Assembly (NCBI RefSeq): GCF_964204645.1 | Contig: NC_134031.1 | Coordinates: 1,967,001-2,031,000, forward strand | DNA from: Tubulanus polymorphus | Lineage: Eukaryota; Nemertea; Palaeonemertea; Tubulaniformes; Tubulanidae | Length of the DNA: 64,000 nucleotides | Direction: 5' to 3' | Shown: positions 6,501 to 48,513 of the stretch, in pieces | Layout: every line of letters starts with the position of its first letter | Position numbering within the stretch: position 1 is the first letter of the stretch | Program-made: the position numbers and the translations under genes | Notes under the pieces: model-generated | What the model was told of the DNA's origin: nothing | Database searches by the model: none | What the model saw: only the letters and a program-made list of their open reading frames with translations

Positions 6501-9500
6501 CAATGAAGCGAGAATAATTGGCCAGAAATCGGTACAACTATCAAAATATTGGCAGAAAATTTCAGTATCGTATATTTTAACAAATTTTTACTCAGGATAC
6601 ACGGATCCTACCAGGCCATCAATGGTGGCTTCATACAAGACGCGCTCGTCGATTTTACCGGTGGCCTATCCGAAGTGATCAACATGAAGGATAAGTCAAA
6701 ACTGCCCGAGAATATGGACTCCCTGTTGATGAAAACGTTGAGAATGAATTCGATGTTGGGCAGTTCAATTGCGGTCAGTTTGAACTATCGCCAATTCGTA
6801 TCTAAACGCCAACTTTTATTTGCGCCGAATGAATTATCCAACGTATTTTCTTATTATTGATGTAGAAAGCATCGTTAACTGTACCAGGTGAAGTTCTACT
6901 GCCTAATGGTCTGTATGCTGGACATGCTTACTCTATTACAGGCATGGCTACGGTAAGCTGTTAATAGTGAGATATTTCTGAAAGTCTTCGTAATATTTCG
7001 ATAATCTTTCATCCCTACGAAAACCGATGCGTTTAACAAAAATTTTGATTCGTAATTAAGCTTCACAGTTGGAATGGAATGGAAATACAAGCGATGAATT
7101 GATTTTTGAATGCACTTTTTGCAGGTAACGGATAATGCAGGCGAAAGGACGAGGCTGATTCGCTGTAGGAACCCGTGGGGACGCGGTGAATACAAAGGCG
7201 CCTTCTCAGACAGGTATTAGGGCATCATATACGCTCTGCGTTTCCATTCAATATCAGTTATAACTACGAGCAATTATCTGAACAGTACTCATTTCACTCA
7301 AACATCTTAATGGTGGCGTACTACCGAAACCCGCAAGTACTACTTTCTTTCCATCAGGTAGGTTTCGCGAAAACAAAGATGACAATTTTCTGTGTAGGTA
7401 TTCAAGTAAACGCGTTTTATTTATAATTGCTCGGTTATAACAAATACAAATAGATTATTTGACGCCTTGGAAAATGTAGAATATCTTCGTGAAAGCTTAG
7501 TGGTAATATAATATAGAAAGTCTTGTTCAAAGAAATCCTCAGAAGTTATATTGGGCTGAATTAGGGTTCTTGTAGCCGACCGGGGTAGGATTGAATTAGT
7601 CCAACCCCATCCTCCTGTGTAGGTTTCTAAAAACCAGACCGAATTTCATTTCGAATCGGTTGTCTTTTAGTTCTACCGCGTGGGATAGCATACCTGACGA
7701 AGAAAAAGAAAAACTTCATTTAGTCGACCGCGAAGATGGCGAATTCTGGTCAGTTCACGATCTACTACGATTTTGAGAGAATTAGTACCGTTAACTATTA
7801 AGACACTATGGTACAACATTTGTTTTTGTTAGGATGCCATTTGAAGACTGGAAAGAAAGCTTCACATCCTGCGAAATGGTTCATCTTTCTCCCGATGCTA
7901 TTATGGGAGTCATCGACGATGAGGTAATCGACGCCTGTGCCGAAAATATCATTTTATCATTTAGATATTTTGTTTATTTTGCAATTGCCTTTTTTGAACG
8001 TATTTGTCACATTTTTATGACACCAATTAAATCTTAGTGTTAGTGTACACAATATATTATCTCTACGAATCCATTTCGTCCGTGTATTAGTGTGCAATTT
8101 TTCTATTAATTAGAACAAGGTCAGATCTGTTGTCCTATATTTCGCCTATGAATATGTCCCAAATAATGCCGCTTGTAAAATTATATTGACGTGTTTTATT
8201 TTGATATTTATCTTTTTCTAGACTTTAGCGCAGGTAAAGTAAGAATGATAAAACTTGCTATCCGCTTCATAATCGAGTGGCTCTAACTCTTAAGCTCTTA
8301 ATAATGATTACTATTTGACGCTGACGTCACGGAAGTGGCCGTCTTGAATGGCTGTGGTTTTACTTCAGTCAGCCACTTGTGTTTTACGGCCAGTATGACG
8401 CGCTTTGACGTCTACGCGAATAACCTCTAACGACTTAGCTTATGATTAGTTCTAATAAAACAGAAATAACGATATACTGATGGACCTTCTAAAATGTTCA
8501 GTCATTCCTTGAACGAGTCATTGTTCTGTTCTACAGACTGTGGAGTTGGATTTGATTTTGATAAATCAACTGATTTTTGCAATATTCAATCTTAGAAATA
8601 AATCCGTAGAAGACTAATATACATCCCAACTAATCATCTATCAACTCTGTGCAACCTATTTCTAAAATCGTAACTAACACTTACAACCCTTTAACGCGTC
8701 CATTGCTATGTACGAAGATATATACATGAAACTATTGATAGAATTTGGAAAAATATATTGAAGTTTTTTTTTTTCATTTTCTGGGAACAGGATCGCGAAA
8801 CCTGGGGAAAGTCGGTCTACCATGGGCGATGGGTAAGAGGCGTTAGTGCAGGAGGCTGCGGTAACAAACCATATCAAAGTACGTAACTAGAGGGACATGA
8901 TGGCGGCAGTCCATTTTTTCTGGAAGATCGGGCCATTTGTACGGGTTATAACCGTTTAACCTTTCATTTCAAGGACTTTTGTGGATAAATCCCCAGTACG
9001 CGTTGTTAGGAGAACCTGAGGCGGCACAAGATGACGGCAAATGCACTTTCATAGTTTCTCTGATGGAGAAAAATCGCGGACAGTTTGAAGAGACGAGTAT
9101 TGGATTTCAGGTGTTTAAGGTACGAAGATACATATTATCAGAAATCGTGAAAATCGGGTTAGAAAATAGTAGGGTTTCATGTAAATCCAGCTGGCACCAC
9201 CAGATGGCATGACTAACAGTCGGTCCTCCTTCAAAATTGTTTTTAACCATCATCTCTGAAATGAATTTTCATGCAGTTTTAATCACTATGAGCCTTAAAA
9301 TAGATGTAATATTGATCGGGAGATTGCGTATGATATTGTTTCACTGATTCTTCAGTTCTTAAATTGCAATGTAGAAGAATCTGAACGCGGTAGAACGTGT
9401 ACTACTAGCGCGCCTAGTGGATCCTCACTTGCCACAAGCGGAATCCTCTGTTGCCACAGTCACACATTAGGAAGGTGTTAAGTAAGATATATTTTCTATA

Positions 9501-35241: not shown

Positions 35242-37350
35242 TTATGAATTTGCCGGTAAATACTGGTAGTACATTTGACGAGATTTCTCCCAGAAAACGA
35301 GACTGAGTACGGTGTGCGGCGCCAGTCGCAGAAACTGCGGTGCCCAGCCTTTATAAAAACCCCACACGCCTTCCGTGCGACAGATCTTCGCGAAACAGTC
35401 GAACACGTTTTTGTACGCGACGCCTTTTCCGTTACTGTCGAATCCCTGATTGTAAATACGCGTAGACATCACGTCGAACGGAGTCATACAAACCACGACG
35501 ACTACTCCACTTAAACAACTCGCGTAGAACGCCGTTAGAATGTGTCCCGGACTATTGATCTGAAAAATCGAATGAAAAAACAGGTCGCTACGGATCAGTC
35601 ATTCTTGTGGATATAACGAGTTCTAAAGTAGGAGAAAATTTCAAATTTTGAGAAAGCGTTCGCATCACTTTCATATCCCAATATCCCTCATAGATCGGTA
35701 CTGTTTATCTGATTCGGTGGTTTTGAAAGCAAATTCTTATTTTTCGAATTCTGTTACCGGCTTGGGCAACAAATCCTGGGGCCGGTTGCATAGTTATGGC
35801 TTAGACTTAAGACTAGTCTAAGACCAACTTAGTTCGATAGCCGATCTAACAAATTTAAGACCGGTCTTATGATTTAAGACCATTTTTGGACTTAAGTCAT
35901 GACTGAGCAACTGGCCCAAGGTCCTAACTGTAACAATTTAGGCGTAGTCTATCTACTGTACTAAAATTTCTAAATAGCTTACAGTGTTTTCGATGAGAGC
36001 CAGGTCCCAGGTCCCAGACCCGTCTGTTGTTTGTTAAGGACCCGCCTGTTTTTTCAAACCAGCTTTTGTTTCAGGGACTGTGACATAGGGGGACCCTCCT
36101 GTTTTTTAAAGGGACCTGGCTTGCTAATTTCTTATTGAAAACACTGGCTTATTCCTCAAAATTGAAGGAGTTTTAAAGGTGGTTTTTACACTCGTTACCT
36201 GCATGTCTTCTATATAGTGTTTAGCGTATGAAAACGTAGATAGCTGAGCCGCTGAACCGACCATTACTCGTAACATGGCCGCCTCAACTCCTCGCCATAA
36301 TCCGAACACGCCTCGTATTCTGTATATAGATCTAAATCCGTCAGCCATTGAGGTGTGTTCGTGTTGATGACCGACGGCTATCATTGAGGTAGCTTTAGAT
36401 TGTAGATGCGTCTTCAACTGAAATAAAAGCAGTTAAAGTATTTTTCAAAAACGTTACGTTTATAGAATGAATAGTGGGTATCGATCGGCAACCTGGAAAC
36501 ACTTTTCAAGACACTGAGTTACTAGTGTGAAAAACGGACGATTAATTTTTGAAAGTGCAGATTAAATGTCTAGCATTTGTAGTTAATTTTCAATTAAAAA
36601 TCTCCCGGGCGGTGAAGTACTGAACGCATGCAGTTTATTACGTAAGCATGAAATTTGACTTTTCAAGCCCCTCCCTCCCCCTGTACGCAAAATCAGCCAT
36701 TTTTTCATATACATTTAGCATTACAGTACGCAATTGCACTGACCCCTCCCCTAATGCGTACGTAATAAATGAATGATCCCTGGTCGACCAGTTTTTGAAA
36801 GTGTACTGATAGAATAGTGTTTGTAGTCCATTTTCAATTAGAAATCTTTAATCTATAAAGTTCTTAACCAAAAGAAAGGAGGGACGATTTAAATATTCGG
36901 AAGAATGCCGATAAACAATCGATGTCTGAGGGGTACAGGGTGCAAGGGGATCTCACATACCATATACATCGGGCTTCCAACTGATGCTCCTAAAACTCCG
37001 GCCAGCGCCCCCGCGCACACCGACTTCCACCAGATCGGTCGGCCGTTCTCGTCTTTCGTCAGTCCTAGATTCGTAAAACACTGGAACGCTCCTAACCGCA
37101 CGCCGTTCATAAACAACTGATACCACAACGCCGGTACGAGTCCGCTCTGTAAACTCAGAATTCCGTCGGTGCGACCGATTTTATAGAACGCGTGGAACAC
37201 GTTGCGATAATGAACGGTGTACATCCCGCGAGCTTGTAGCTCCCCCTGGAGCTGCATGCGAGTTTTAACCACTTCGAGCGGGTTCGTAAAGAACCCGGCT
37301 CCACACGCGGCTATTCCGCCTAAAACAAATTCCACGCGGTTATCGGTCAT
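35242..37350 (-). CDS. SLC25A35: Mitochondrial solute carrier, SLC25A34/35 type
   Basis: There are three exons, 5' to 3': 36961-37350, 36199-36417, 35242-35559, all phase 0, giving 308 aa. Three mitochondrial-carrier repeats are seen. Repeat 1 has [18 protein letters not shown]. Repeat 2 has [14 protein letters not shown], with a relaxed PxDxxK as in this subfamily. Repeat 3 has [29 protein letters not shown] and [14 protein letters not shown] close the protein as in human SLC25A35. It should be a six-helix carrier of the inner mitochondrial membrane. The transported substrate of this subfamily is not firmly established. A34 and A35 cannot be separated from this reading alone, so the symbol is the nearest match. 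Confidence 0.92.
35775..35921. mobile_element. ~147-bp MITE, CC(A/T)GGG family
   Basis: It begins CCTGGGGCCGGTTGCATAGT and ends GAGCAACTGGCCCAAGG. It lies in SLC25 intron 2 and shares internal blocks with the copies at 14769, 17044 and 17520. Confidence 0.75.
36546..36847. mobile_element. Duplicated segment flanking a TIR-like insert
   Basis: A ~57-base segment (TTTTTGAAAGTG through TTTTCAATTA-AAAATC) occurs at 36546-36603 and again at 36792-36847. Between them lies an insert with imperfect inverted ends (TTTATTACGTAAGCATG near 36634-36650, its complement near 36754-36775) and two C-rich tracts. The insert resembles a small DNA element. The flanking duplicate is too long for a normal target-site duplication. 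Confidence 0.5.
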
Positions 37351-37559
37351 TCTTGCGATGATTTAAAAATGGCGCCGAAATTTTTTCGCATTTTTTTCGT
37401 ACGGATAACCTTGATTACTGAGAAGTGTTGATTACTGCTTTAGCATCCCTTAATGTTATTGATTTGCTGAAAGAGAAATAATAAAAAAATCAAGGAATCA
37501 TGTATCATCAAGCGGTTATCCAGATTCAGAGCACAGACTGTCGAGTGCTCGACTCTTGC

Positions 37560-38911: not shown

Positions 38912-41900
38912 CTAATCGTCGAAATGGTTATACACGTCTCTATAAGCGTAACTTTTCGTTTGACGTTGCATGAGATCCAGTTTCTTCTTCCCATGTTTGA
39001 AATTATATAGCGGGGCACTAATGCCGGCTTTAAGCGCCTGTACTGTACTGTCGCTTTTCCCTTTTCTCGCCTTACTCTACGATAGAAAAATAGTAATCAA
39101 CAGGTTTCTTTCTTTCAATAGGTTTAGCCAATAAAGGAGGGGGGGGGGGGTGCCTTGGAAAAAATATAAAAAATGCACCATGTTATTTTTTTTTCAAGGC
39201 GCTAGTTAACCCAAGGTCGATTTTTAAAAACGTACCGATAAAGCGTCGTAACACCTAAGAGCCATGATGTTGGCGCGAAGATGTTTCGTTTCTTCTTCGA
39301 ATTGGATACAATCATCGTAAATTTCATCATCTTCGCTACCGCTGCTGACAGCTTCAGCCCTCCTTTTCATCATCCGATCCATCACTTCACTATTCAATAA
39401 ACAAAAATAATGAATACTATTTTGATATAACTGTTACATACGGGAGTATAGTAGAGCTTGCGCGTATCGTAGATTCTCAAAAATGATCTACTGGATCTAG
39501 TTCCTTGTTGTGAGCTAAGATTTGACTCTATAGAGTTAAAGCATTGAAAATGCACTGATTTTAACTTTAACTCATGACTGTGGAACTAGCTGTTGAATTA
39601 CCACATTTTCATTTACATCAGTTTTCTATCAATCAAGAAAAATCGAGTTCTTACTAAAAACATTTTCATTTGAGAAACTGGTACACTTACATTTGGTCGA
39701 CAGCGTGTTCGCTTTTGCCTTGTTGCGCTAGTTTGGACGCATGGCGTACCGCCGCCAGTCCTGTTACGGCAATGTTCATGTTCTTTTCCATTTCTTGACG
39801 GTCTTTAGTCGTCTTCAAGCGTTTACTAAGCACTCGAAGACACTTCGAACCATCTGCACGTTTGTAGGTGATCTGTGCCTACAAAAATGATGTTGATGTA
39901 TACGCATACAGAAGGTTACTTTGAGGAGGAATGTTTAAGGCTAGGCGAACGAATATTATACCTGGAATGGTAAAGTTTCTTTGATCGGTTGTGACGCCGG
40001 TTCTGAAAGAATATCATACTTCAGAACCACATCCGTATTTTTCATTGCAGCCCCGATTCTCTTACTCAATACGCTGCTCTTCTGCTGAAAATGAATAAGA
40101 AAATATTTTTAGCATCGACACAAAGCTAAGCGTACACGACGAGGGAAAAACAGACACACGTAAATAAACATGTTTTATCTCGGAAAATTGTTCCCGAAAC
40201 CATGTATGTTTCTCATTTTTCGTAAACGCACACGACACACGGAGCTAGAAAACATTCTGTATCCCGTATTCATGTTTCCCTGTGTCTTGTGCTTTGGGCT
40301 TTTAGAAAACTGCCTTCGGAGACCGAATAAGTCGCAGTTTTTGTACTTCTTTTAAAAGCTACCTCTTTTTCAGCTGAAGCGCCATCTTTTTCATCATCGA
40401 TAAAGTATAAAGACGGATGAAGGATAAATTTCAATTCGACGTCGGTTGCCACGACCGGGTTTTGTGATATGAGACGGATTTGCCGAGACAGTTCTGCCGC
40501 GTTCAAAACGGTGACGTCACCTCCGGTTATTTCGGAAACGACTGATATCGTCTGCAAGTTGACCTCGGCTCCCTTTATCGCTAGTATATTCACAACAGTT
40601 TGATACTGGCTGCAATATTCACCGACCTACGAACAAGAAAGGGGTATAGATCAGAAAATAGATTGGTCAGACAGCGAAACTAGTCTAAATGATTTTGTAG
40701 TCTTTCATCTCAGTTATACGGTTTCCGCGGCAATAGACTTTCTCCTCCATCACGTGTTGCCGGCTAGAGTAGTGTTGAGTTCCGGGCACTGAGTGGTAGG
40801 TACTTGTACGGGCTTGGCCTGAACCAGTTTTCCGAGGTCCGGAGTTGCCATAGTACGCAGTCACCCAGATAGAGCCAATCATTACGAAATATGGAACCTT
40901 CTTATATGTTTACCTGCGAATAGAAGCTTCTAGCATCTTCCAGGCTTTGGTTGCTGCCAATTCCACCTAAACCTTGGTTGGGCTGCCCATCGGTGCACAA
41001 AACTATCTCAGTGGCTGCCGATTGCGTGGCTATACCGCATGATACTAGTAATGCCGGGCCTAAAGCTGTACAGCCGCTGGTGGATAGACTGTTCACTTGT
41101 TTCCGAATCAGACTGAAAATAAGTTGTGCTTATATTCACCCTAGTGGTAACTTTTTCCATCAATTCCAAGAAAATCCGTAAAATGATACTATCAGCTAAT
41201 CACGCATGTTTTCAACACGCCGTTTATTCCTCCTTTTTACCTTTCAGATTCCGTAATCGATTTGTAGGAATTTTCCTCCCCGATTTTCCGTCCAGCCTCA
41301 AACAATTTGTCGAAATCGAATTGTAGACTAGAATCGATGGTCTGGTTTGCTTGCCTCTCGTCTCCGAGGATGTACACTTCGCTACCGAAATGAACTATAG
41401 CTATGCGACGTTTTGGCTTCGTGAGTTTCATTTCCATCACCTGTCTGTATGGAAGAAAACATACTATGTATAGAATACCGCTTAAGTGAATGTGATAAAA
41501 TCTCTTTAAACATTACCTCATAGAACAACAGGGTTCTGTTGGGCCTATTGGTGGGTTTCAAATAAGATAATTTTGGAGTTGAAGACATCGCTAACCCAAT
41601 CTTACTCAAACTGAAGGGTCAAATTCAGTCTTTAAAACCGAATCCAAATACACAGGTCTTAAGTCTGCAGAAAGGATTTATTTTTCAAATATGAGACAAC
41701 CGCGATTTTCAGTTACTTACTTGTTGATAGCAGTTTTCATACACTCGAGTGACGTCATATAGTTACTTTCACGGGCTGACCTTCCTTTTGCCTGACGCCA
41801 CTGGGCTGTAATCGGGAAAAATTGTTCGTGTCATCAAAATTACCACCAAAAGAAACCAATGCTTTTAAGATTATCAAATACATTTTTACATTAAATCTTA

Positions 41901-44847
41901 AGAATATCAATTGATGTGTTACAAACCTTGAGAATTCGGCACGGACTGGGATGCTGCCATAGAGCCACTTGTATCGATGCAATAAATTACTAAGCTGTCA
42001 TCATCGGAATCGTCTTTTGGCGTTTGGTTTTTAACCTCGGCAGGTGGAGTTATCATGTATTCAACAGTATCATCAACTGGCGCTTTCTGTTCGTCAGCTT
42101 TTAGATTGACATTCTCGTGGCAACAAAACTCACTGAAAAACAATAAGACAAGGGATTGAATGCGCAAGGAGTTTCGTAGCGGTCGGGTTTAGTACGTGAC
42201 GTCATGCACTCACCACACCCAACATTTATTATCGTCTGTTCCCGTCAATTCGCTGATTGATGACATTATTGCGTCACATCGGTCACATTTTCGAGCATCT
42301 GTTGCCGAGAATTCGAGCTTATCCTCTAGTTTGCCCAGACTGACCACGACGACGTTTGAATCAGCCATTTCACACGTTCTCGTCTTTTTGTTACATTTCG
42401 TCGTCTTTTTGTTACATTTCGTCGTCTTTTTGTTACATTTCGCTGGCAGCGGCGGCGGAGGTGGCATCCATTTCTGTGCATCGGACTCTTGGCCATCCGA
42501 GTCACTATTGGCCTCAGCATTTGTAGACGATTTCTTAGATGAGAACAATGATTTCAAGTGGTTTGTGAAAGAATTTTGTCGGGTGGGTTTCTTTGTTTCT
42601 TGCACTGGCAATTTAATACCTTTTCCTGAAAAGCAAATGCCTGAATATGAGTAACAGATTGAATAGAAATTGTTAACTGTTCTTTAAAGCAAAAAAAAAC
42701 TCTCGTTAACTCTATTAGCCGTAAATTAGATTAAAACACAAATCAGTAGCACGGTCACACGTATCATCGACCACTTTAGGGGTTTTTGATACCTTGTCTG
42801 ACTATCTGGGCTGTGAAGCTTCCGAAATTGGGTCATTTGAAGAAATAAGGCTATCACGAATTATGGATATCATTCTATCGAGCGACAGTATAGTGAAGTT
42901 ACCTTTAGTTTTTGCGACTTGTTTTTCCACTGGTTTCAAACCTGTGATTTTAACCTTTTTCCTATACGCGTCCTCAATCGTCGGGTCGTAATTTTCGACG
43001 AAGGTACCGAGGATATACTGCTGTACGATAGATGATTTACCTACTGCACCACTGCCCAGAATAACCAACTAAATTGCAGAAAGAATCGAATATGGAACTT
43101 AGCTAGCTTTATTTTCAAATTGACTCTCAGTTCGTTTGGTATTATAACTAGTCGACCCATAGCTCTGGAACTGGATGATGAATTGTTGTATGGGCATATC
43201 AAATATCTAAGAAGCTGTACGACTCTTAAAAAATGTAACGGCGTTCTACACTTAGTTTTACACGAAAGATCAAGTTAACATATATATATCGGGGTAAAAG
43301 AAAGAACCAAACAGTGCCTTAACATTATGATAATACAATCGGATATAGAACAAAAAGGGTTTAGACTGTCATAACCTTGATTGCGCAACCGGCTCCGAGT
43401 TGGCAAATTCACACTTTATAAGACCAAAACATCTACATTTTTCTATTTCAAGCAAATGAGAAAAACTTTCAATTTTAAGTTAAACAATAAGCATTTTATT
43501 CACCTTATAATCGACGCCCGTTCTCGGCATAGAACGGACTAAAGTCTCGAATGTTTCTGAGATGTTCTGGTTTAACAGCGCCGATGTCTCGATGAACGGT
43601 ATCCCGTGTGACTCGGCTAATTGCTCGCCTTCCTTTGACGTCACTACAGCTTTGCCCTTCAGATCGTTTTTGTTGGCCAACAAAATCTGTCAGATTGAAA
43701 TGAGCAATCCACTCTCAGATTCAAACGATAAAGAAACACTCCAACCTTTTAGTATGTATAGGCACGTATTGTTTAATGGTTGCAATTAAGTTTCAATGAT
43801 TTTTGGATGAGAATTTCATTTTAAGTACTCACGCCGTACACATCCGAGGAGCCTTTCACCGTTTTCGTCCACTCTATGATTCGTCGAACTTTTTCGAAAC
43901 TGTCGCGATCTACGATCGAATAAACGAATAGAAAACCTTCGGCACTTCGGACGTACTGGTCGCGCATGGCGGAGAACTCCTCCTGACCGGCTGTATCTAA
44001 GATATCCAACATACACGTCTGTGCGAAAGAGAAACGAAAGTCATGAGTAGAAGATGTGATAAGTGCTGTTTGAATTATTTTCGCAGGCATTTCTTGGAAA
44101 TGGCTCAATTCATTTATAGGAAAATGAACTGGATTCAATATTTTACTATGATAACAGTGTTTGTGGCCCATTAAATCCCATATACATACACTTAATCAGC
44201 GCCGATAGGAAGACAAACGATAATCAAGTCATTAACCAGAAAGTATGTCCTTAACATTCTTTCAACATTTCAATGACGATGATATAAAAAAATGCATTGT
44301 AAATCAATGATTTGATCTTTGAAATTAGTTCAGCTTCGCAATTTAGAGATCAAAATAAAAAATTCATCCCCGGGGGCCAATTGTATAGACCGGTGCTGAT
44401 TAACAAAAAGGAGCACCAGATGACGGTAAAGAGCCCGAAATCTCTTTTGACTTTTGATTTCGATTCTTGAATTTCGTTTTTAATCTTTTCTATTTGTATT
44501 TAGTGAATTTCATAATCTATTCGCCACGTTTGAGTGTTATACGAACTGTTATACCCTTTTAGACTATAGATAGAATAATATATGACTATGGTAAGGGTTT
44601 AAACGGTTAAAAAGGACCCCGCGCACAAAACTGTCCGCGTGAATTGTGCGGCCTGTATTAAAACTACCTCGCCGTCGTCGTATCTTTCCGACCTGCTTTC
44701 TCTCTTGCGTTTCGTGAGAACTTGCTCGATTTGTTCAGCGGTCATTGTATCGGCATCTTCGAATAGATCATCTGCTTCGAGCGTTTCAGTTTCGTTAGTT
44801 CGCTGCTCCCTCGGAACGACGTACGCGAATTCACTACCGAACTCCAT
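38912..44847 (-). CDS. cpras1: Circularly permuted Ras protein with zinc finger and vWA domain
   Basis: There are 14 exons, 5' to 3': 44668-44847, 43833-44018, 43504-43686, 42903-43068, 42214-42625, 41927-42132, 41721-41805, 41241-41444, 40914-41112, 40363-40626, 39962-40084, 39691-39878, 39236-39389, 38912-39076. They sum to 2715 nt, or 904 aa; an in-frame TAA nine bases upstream fixes the ATG. The Ras motifs are reordered: G3 DTAGQEE (68-74), G4 NKND (127-130), G5 ETSA (155-158), then G1 GSGAVGKS (188-195) and G2 YDPTIED (210-216). The new start corresponds to about Ras residue 50. A Ser/Lys linker with KCNKKTT repeats and a poly-Pro run follows. Next come a Sec23/24-like finger (C352, C355, C376, C379) and a vWA domain with MIDAS DTSGS (428-432). 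The C-terminus is helical and basic. The plan matches the family named cpRAS1 in Dictyostelium. Its animal function is unknown to me; GTP-dependent scaffolding is inference. Confidence 0.93.
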
Positions 44848-46928: not shown

Positions 46929-48494
46929 TCAAACGTGAACTGGCGGGTGTTCGTTCGTTTGGTTCAATCTTAACGGTTTGTTAACATCGTCCGGGAAACA
47001 GGGCACTTTCAACAGCTGTTTGAATATCAATATATAATTGATAGTGACCGGAATGACGATCAGATTGAGAAACAAAGCTAACGATTCGAGTACGACTCGT
47101 ATTCGCAGTTCGTACGGAGTTTTCGGAGGAATGTCGGCGTCGCTCAGTTTGTAACACGTAAAATATTGCACCGTCGTCGACTTCGACGTCGCCGACCTGA
47201 CGTTCGAACCGGCGACGTTACCGTAACACGACGCGAAATGTTTCACGTCTTGCGTTATGCCGACGATGCACCAAGTCGAGTAAAACAGACACAAACACAG
47301 AGTTATTACCGCCATGATTAGCGTGTTCACCGTTTGACATTGGGTCTTTTTTCGGACGCCGGCCGATGCGATACAGGCCAGCGCGATGTACGACGCCCCG
47401 CACCACATTCCCGCGTACAAAAACGACCCGTACGGATTAAACGCCATCGAAGCGCCACCTATAATCAACGTCCCGACGCCGGCGACGAACACGATACAGT
47501 TCAGTGGCGCCACCTTGAAAAATTCCGGATTTTCTTCACGCGTCGGGTTTGAGATTCGATTCGCGTGCGTCGGCCTGTGATTGGCCAGATTTTGATGACG
47601 TAGTCTGTTCGGGTAATGTCTGCGGAGTACCGGGGTGACTAGTTGACTCTCGTCACTGAGTATCGGTTGTGATATAAGTCCCGGCGGTTGACTTTGCGAG
47701 TTGTTTCCGAACGAGAAATACGCGGAATCGTTCCTGGCCTGGTGATACGTACCGAGCATTGCGATGGCGTCCTGGTATGTAGGCGGCGGCGGTGTACACG
47801 TATGCCGACTATGATGTGAATCACTGTTATGTTTAGAAGGCACTGGACTAGCCCTGGGACCCGCGCTATGCATCGTGGGCCGATGCGTTAAAGCAGGGCT
47901 TGACGCCGAACTCCTGCTTATTACAGTATTTCGACTGCCGACAGTCGCGGCTGCCATGCCGGCGTGATCGTGAAGTGACGTCATGCCGTACTGAGTCTGG
48001 TTCGTCGCGCCATGTTGGTGTTGATACTGATTCGAAGGAGGCATTAAACATTGCGACGGCGATGTTGGTTGCTGTCCGTACGGTGATGACGTTTGACACT
48101 GCGGAACAGGCGAGGGCCCGTTCATCGATAGAGTCAGACTACACTGGCTCCCGGGTGAACACGCCTGCTGCGGTCCGTAGTATATCGGTCCATAGCTTGT
48201 CGGAGTCGTTTGGCCGAGCCCTTGCGATGGCGCTTGACAAGAATTCACGTGGTACGATTGGGTATATGGATTTTGGCACTGGCTCGTACGTTGGTATTGG
48301 CCATGAGTTAATACGGGGCAATGGTTGTTCGCAACGAGCGCATCCTGGTGGTGACGTTCCGAACAACTAGTTAGTTCTAACGATGGCTCCTGTAACGGCA
48401 GGACAGCTTCGTTTCGGCAGCAATCTGCCGCGTTAGTGTGTTTGTCACATCTCCTAGTGTCGGTATCATTCAACTGGCTAACGGTAACTCCCAT
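46929..48494 (-). CDS. Four-transmembrane protein with long Gln/Pro/Ser-rich N-terminus and PPxY motif
   Basis: The whole 521-aa coding region is in one exon. Residues 1-325 are polar and low-complexity (Gln, Ser, Pro, His, with many Cys). PPTY (237-240) is a WW-domain ligand of the kind bound by NEDD4-type ubiquitin ligases. Four hydrophobic segments follow: about 332-351, 360-378, 388-413 and 467-491. The loop between the third and fourth carries Cys 423 and 447, likely extracellular. The ~30-residue C-tail is polar. The start is fixed by an in-frame TAG nine bases upstream. The 4-TM plus PPxY plan recalls ENTREP/FAM189 or MS4A-like proteins, but there the order differs and I do not assign it. 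An adaptor role in membrane protein turnover is possible, not shown. GC content is higher than in the surroundings. Confidence 0.85.
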   Translation of the reverse strand: MGVTVSQLNDTDTRRCDKHTNAADCCRNEAVLPLQEPSLELTSCSERHHQDALVANNHCPVLTHGQYQRTSQCQNPYTQSYHVNSCQAPSQGLGQTTPTSYGPIYYGPQQACSPGSQCSLTLSMNGPSPVPQCQTSSPYGQQPTSPSQCLMPPSNQYQHQHGATNQTQYGMTSLHDHAGMAAATVGSRNTVISRSSASSPALTHRPTMHSAGPRASPVPSKHNSDSHHSRHTCTPPPPTYQDAIAMLGTYHQARNDSAYFSFGNNSQSQPPGLISQPILSDESQLVTPVLRRHYPNRLRHQNLANHRPTHANRISNPTREENPEFFKVAPLNCIVFVAGVGTLIIGGASMAFNPYGSFLYAGMWCGASYIALACIASAGVRKKTQCQTVNTLIMAVITLCLCLFYSTWCIVGITQDVKHFASCYGNVAGSNVRSATSKSTTVQYFTCYKLSDADIPPKTPYELRIRVVLESLALFLNLIVIPVTINYILIFKQLLKVPCFPDDVNKPLRLNQTNEHPPVHV

Positions 48495-48513
48495 CGTGAT
48501 CTACCATAGATAC
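48495..48513 (-). promoter_or_regulatory. 5' UTR splice acceptor and overlapping upstream ORF
   Basis: CTATTTCAG|GTATCT on the minus strand is a good acceptor at 48514/48513, so the 5' UTR is probably spliced from an upstream exon. The 19-base leader contains an upstream ATG (48505-48507). It opens a nine-codon frame that overlaps the main start and ends at TAG, so it could dampen translation. Confidence 0.5.

Follow-up and report, generated by a model that had tools for sequence, protein, structure and literature searches.

Circularly permuted GTPases of the Ras family (cpRAS) are defined by the motif order G3-G4-G5-G1-G2 together with a chain that is broken between strands 2 and 3 of the fold (Elias and Novotny, 2008; PMC2430557, cited here and below from the parts of that paper that were accessible). 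The cpRAS-VWA proteins among them are about 840–970 residues long, with an N-terminal region of 40–66 residues, a variable linker, in most members a four-cysteine zinc finger, and a VWA/Sec23-trunk half; they are recorded from lancelet, sea urchin, sponge, choanoflagellate, Capsaspora, amoebae and Naegleria, and their cellular role was left open (PMC2430557). The same source describes DdiCPRas2 from Dictyostelium, a protein of 3933 residues with alpha-2-macroglobulin-like flanks, and the YRG (YawG/YlqF) permuted GTPases, in which the order is G4-G5-G1-G2-G3. The gene presented here, judged from its sequence, very probably encodes a cpRAS-VWA (cpRAS1 type) protein, composed of a permuted Ras domain, a linker, a four-cysteine zinc finger and a VWA/Sec23-trunk part with a MIDAS.

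Gene model and neighbouring genes

The window, by which we mean the whole stretch of DNA analysed (C7:1967001–2031000, 64 kb), belongs to a genome assembly of 267.8 Mb in 77 contigs. On its minus strand, from 44847 to 38912, an in-frame gene of 14 exons coding for 904 residues is predicted from the sequence. The exon ends were picked by reading frame and splice consensus; the 13 introns, all GT-AG, are 81–649 bases long, and the GC content is 0.459 in the coding sequence versus 0.357 in the introns. The first-pass annotation had placed a phase-consistent exon series at 42903–44847, and both coordinates and phases hold: the ATG, with an in-frame stop just upstream, stands at 44847, exon 4 ends at 42903, directly followed by GTAACT, and the introns between exons 1–4 are all of phase 0. 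These four exons are correct, but the annotation stopped early: beyond them (44847–42903), ten further in-frame exons (42625–38912) lead to a stop codon, and it missed the VWA/Sec23-trunk half, by which the cpRAS-VWA (cpRAS1) type is defined.

Other genes, gene pieces and open frames are seen in the window. Downstream of the cpRAS-VWA gene and on the same strand lies a gene of the mitochondrial-carrier type (35245–37362, minus strand; two open frames match Mito_carr in Pfam, one at 2.2e-20 and the other at 5.4e-20). The plus strand carries a fragment of a leucine-rich-repeat protein (1–1002; LRR_8, 1.3e-20) and an exon of a calpain-type protease (6507–6857; Peptidase_C2, 3.7e-11). An open frame of 523 codons on the minus strand (46932–48500) has no Pfam match at 0.001; on the strand opposite to it, a frame of 172 codons is open at 47852–48367.

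The permuted Ras domain

Exon 1 (44668–44847; minus strand, as all exons below) contains the start codon and an N-terminal region of 57 residues, which has no family match of its own in Pfam, the edges of the GTPase models extending into it, and ends with DGE (Ras 47–49). Exon 2 (43833–44018) covers Ras 50–111 with G3 (DTAGQEE) and switch II, exon 3 (43504–43686) covers Ras 112–163 with G4 (NKND) and G5 (ETSA), followed by PRTGV and DYK (Ras 3–5), and exon 4 (42903–43068) covers Ras 6–48 with G1 (GSGAVGKS) and G2 (YDPTIED) and the start of the linker that continues in exon 5. In a PDB sequence search residues 58–175 aligned with Ras 47–163 and residues 181–226 with Ras 3–48 (numbering from PDB chains spanning 47–163), and the best 60 of 795 matches to the permuted domain were all KRas or HRas. 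After rotation to the normal order, 92 of 161 positions are identical to the KRAS chain 8stm_A, a count that is valid for this chain; at Ras 75, among other positions, it is unlike 9g0y_A (Ala versus Gly). The Pfam Ras model matches the 904-residue protein at 2.3e-47 in two stretches. KRAS searched against the whole window gave five matches at E ≤10; three are pieces of this gene (9e-21, 4e-12, 3e-9), the only ones with E <0.01, and the better of the other two is at chance level (0.28). The claim of a circularly permuted Ras GTPase with the order G3-G4-G5-G1-G2 is thus confirmed by exons 1–4 and by the PDB alignment.

Compared with Ras, the residues K16, S17, F28, T35, D57, G60, Q61, N116, K117 and D119 are kept, and with them NKxD; K16, S17, T35, D57, G60, Q61, N116, K117 and D119 are important in Ras. 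Eight of the nine effector-loop residues (32–40) and 14 of the 17 residues of switch II (60–76) equal those of 8stm_A. By comparison with this chain the GTP-binding motifs are kept, as had been claimed, including the Gln of DTAGQ (Q61), and the kept catalytic and effector residues suggest a working GTPase. Alternatively, the permuted domain could be real but serve as a structural or pseudo-GTPase module. This would fit the substitutions A11S and G13A in the P-loop (some GTPases of this genome, Rho-type by appearance, also have Ala at Ras 13) and the change of SAK to SAL at Ras 147 (the SA of G5 is kept), and activity data for the family were not found in the literature searched, as far as it was accessible; the retention of all nine residues named above as important, however, makes a pseudo-GTPase improbable.

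The position of the cut can be given rather closely. T61 at the start of exon 2 (44018) aligns with Ras residue 50, exon 1 ends with codons for DGE, identical to Ras 47–49 (a match of three residues, weak evidence when taken alone), and in exon 4 the similarity to Ras extends as far as KITG (Ras 45–48). Ras 47–48 would accordingly be represented on both sides, with about two residues doubled at the protein break, which the alignment places at the tip of the hairpin formed by beta2 and beta3, slightly before the Ras 49/50 intron. A cut in this hairpin had been proposed and is supported (exon 1 from Ras 47, exon 4 to Ras 48); a clean cut at Ras 49/50 is true of the intron, which is exactly there, but not of the protein, which is cut slightly earlier. 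Also the short link between the old termini is present, although its extent is not GVDYK: because DYK matches Ras EYK (residues 3–5), the non-Ras linker is about PRTGV.

The join of the old termini also bears on the question of whether a truncated Ras gene (exons 1–3) and a separate gene (exons 4–14) are adjacent here. Exons 3 and 4 are indeed separated by a phase-0 intron of 435 bp, but the DYK ending exon 3 represents the Ras residues just before the LVILG of exon 4, which makes the join seamless, and in exon 4 no ATG precedes G1 within the open frame, so that two genes are highly improbable. That an ordinary Ras gene was misassembled or locally rearranged, with a false exon order as the result, is extremely unlikely: the order is unlike that of canonical Ras and one assembly was examined, but each Ras piece is single in the window, the frame leads on to a zinc finger and a VWA half, which is unexpected for a scrambled normal Ras gene, the genome has many other Ras-superfamily matches, and the same order, with the same fusion, has been described from other eukaryotes (PMC2430557, in its accessible parts).

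Searched with the Ras model, the genome yielded 160 matches, each exon or gene piece being counted separately; the cpRAS-VWA gene accounts for three. These 160 matches show the limited reach of the paralogue searches, which detect close relatives only and which returned from the same genome exon 2 itself for exon 2, and ten matches, all within the cpRAS-VWA gene, for the C-terminal half. With six exact peptide patterns, which are a weak test for permuted relatives, none of eight candidate stretches in viral contigs was confirmed and two of 85 in genome contigs were, both being Lokiarchaeota GTPases in normal order. L030 and L031 (1477–2004) are Lokiarchaeota Ras/Rab-like GTPases with the normal motif order.

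Because both junctions of the permuted domain, Ras 49/50 and 5/6, coincide with phase-0 introns, a permutation at the level of exons was considered, with an ancestral intron of Ras genes as its site. For the intron comparison, 40 Ras-superfamily loci of the same genome were picked by hand from the Ras-model matches. Of 20 loci examined, ten have an intron between G1 and G3, located near the hairpin at Ras 51 (one), 53 (three) or 55 (one) and in the other five further upstream, in no case at Ras 49/50; four have none between G1 and G3, and six gave no result. When all 40 loci were scanned for the G3-bearing exon, 31 gave one and 9 did not. An AG stands exactly before residue 50 in 5 of the 31 (L023, L028, L046, L049 and L051); it lies within a longer open frame that offers further acceptors, and it is accompanied by 3–6 pyrimidines in 12. 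Exon-level permutation at a shared ancestral 49/50 intron is unsupported, there being no convincing 49/50 intron in the canonical genes of this genome that were examined.

The zinc finger, VWA and Sec23-like half

Exon 5 (42214–42625) codes for linker and for most of the zinc finger. The linker contains an in-frame minisatellite (42380–42442, minus strand) of 3.0 perfect 21-bp copies encoding KCNKKTT units. It also has a proline-rich stretch, PPPPPLPAK (42438–42464, minus strand), which resembles a class II SH3 ligand. The four cysteines of the finger are in CDRC (352) and CWVC (373), the codon of the last one being split by the exon 5/6 intron. In exon 6 (41927–42132) the zinc-finger match ends and the VWA begins with DTSGS (aa 429–433); exons 7 (41721–41805), 8 (41241–41444) and 9 (40914–41112) encode VWA/Sec23 trunk, the last with Thr 556 and Asp 582. 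We take DTSGS, Thr 556 and Asp 582 to be a complete MIDAS. The trunk match extends to aa 649 in exon 10 (40363–40626), which also encodes the region after it. Exons 11 (39962–40084) and 12 (39691–39878) share a weak match to the Sec23 beta-sandwich, which ends in exon 12, the remainder of which is probably helical. The C-terminal part is encoded by exon 13 (39236–39389), which has no family match, and exon 14 (38912–39076), which ends with the stop codon; there is no CaaX box at the C-terminus of the 904-residue model.

In Pfam, Sec23_trunk (aa 464–649, 3.3e-6) is just above its cut-off with 27.3 versus 27 bits. Below the cut-off are VWA_2 (aa 424–513, 1.1e-4), zf-Sec23_Sec24 (aa 352–383, 0.014, and 0.0093 with the C-terminal half alone as query) and Sec23_BS (aa 707–759, 0.093, and with shorter queries 0.055 for the C-terminal half and 0.025 for the last 298 residues). 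A solved relative of the C-terminal half was not found by sequence in the PDB (one match, E 0.89), and no NCBIfam model matched it.

Sec23 and Sec24 are built from zinc finger, trunk, beta-sandwich, helical and gelsolin parts. The first three are matched here in the Sec23/24 order, zinc finger and beta-sandwich below the cut-off, whereas the helical and gelsolin parts have no Pfam match in the 904-residue model. The Sec23_trunk model gave 11 matches in the genome, 10 of them above the cut-off, in three places, which are presumably one Sec23 and two Sec24. The trunk exons of the cpRAS-VWA gene are not among these matches, and the genome-wide search therefore overlooks distant members. Where the MIDAS of the cpRAS-VWA gene has the complete DTSGS, the three places have DTCMD, DVSYN and DVSYH, without a full DxSxS. 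By these sequence features the C-terminal half appears related to the COPII coat subunits Sec23/Sec24, yet distinct from them.

Proposed function and comparison with known permuted GTPases

In the structure of Ras the beta2-beta3 loop is away from the nucleotide and from the effector face. The permuted domain may fold like normal Ras, cycle between GTP and GDP and present a normal effector face. With the domain ends leaving at this loop and without a prenylated tail, the linker would hold the Ras domain in cis. The Ras domain would thereby serve a scaffold as its switch, and the metal-binding VWA/Sec23-like half of that scaffold would bind partners or a membrane coat. It is probable that this half, with its metal site, is a partner-binding platform; that the protein joins a Ras switch in cis to a platform of Sec23/24-like kind, the metal site of which is intact, is put forward tentatively, as a possible but rather doubtful arrangement. 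Because there is no CaaX box, any membrane contact must come from elsewhere.

From the position of switch I and switch II at opposite ends it had been concluded that the contacts with effectors and GAPs must differ, a conclusion that is not warranted. The two switches, as far as the alignment tells, are distant in the chain only, the cut being outside both, and since the residues of the effector loop and of switch II, among them Gln61, are nearly all kept, different contacts are not required. A normal effector face held by the linker is more likely than altered contacts.

A functional study of the cpRAS family, or a link of cpRAS to the Sec23/24 beta-sandwich, was not found in the literature searched, which included work on abalone (PMC11764893), Physarum (PMC3505798), eel (PMC5560681) and Naegleria fowleri (PMC4082629) in accessible parts and had most subscription journals outside its reach. 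The present analysis provides a model of all exons of a cpRAS-VWA gene with catalytic and effector residues kept, and the Sec23/24-like reading, if true, would give a concrete hint to the function of a family for which the accessible text of PMC2430557 leaves the cellular role open.

Compared with the systems described in the accessible parts of PMC2430557, the YRG (YawG/YlqF) proteins have in common with the gene product a circularly permuted GTPase domain, but order and cut differ; a YRG permuted GTPase is ruled out, G3 standing first here. DdiCPRas2 shares the permuted Ras domain, but the alpha-2-macroglobulin-like flanks belong to DdiCPRas2 only, and this type is ruled out by the lack of such a Pfam match at E up to 1. 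With the cpRAS-VWA proteins the gene product shares the order G3-G4-G5-G1-G2, the break between strands 2 and 3, a RAS-family domain with a TIE G2 motif (here in YDPTIED), the linker, the four-cysteine zinc finger (weak in Pfam, 0.014) and the VWA/Sec23-trunk half, and it agrees with them in length (904 versus 840–970 residues) and in its N-terminal region (57 versus 40–66). When compared by description, it differs in the three-copy in-frame 21-bp repeat and the proline-rich motif of the linker, and in a weak beta-sandwich match, which is not mentioned for cpRAS-VWA in those parts of the paper. The relation to the cpRAS1 family that the first-pass annotation had suspected is thus supported by motif order, architecture and length, and the gene is, within the description given there, a further member of a family already described (Elias and Novotny, 2008; PMC2430557).
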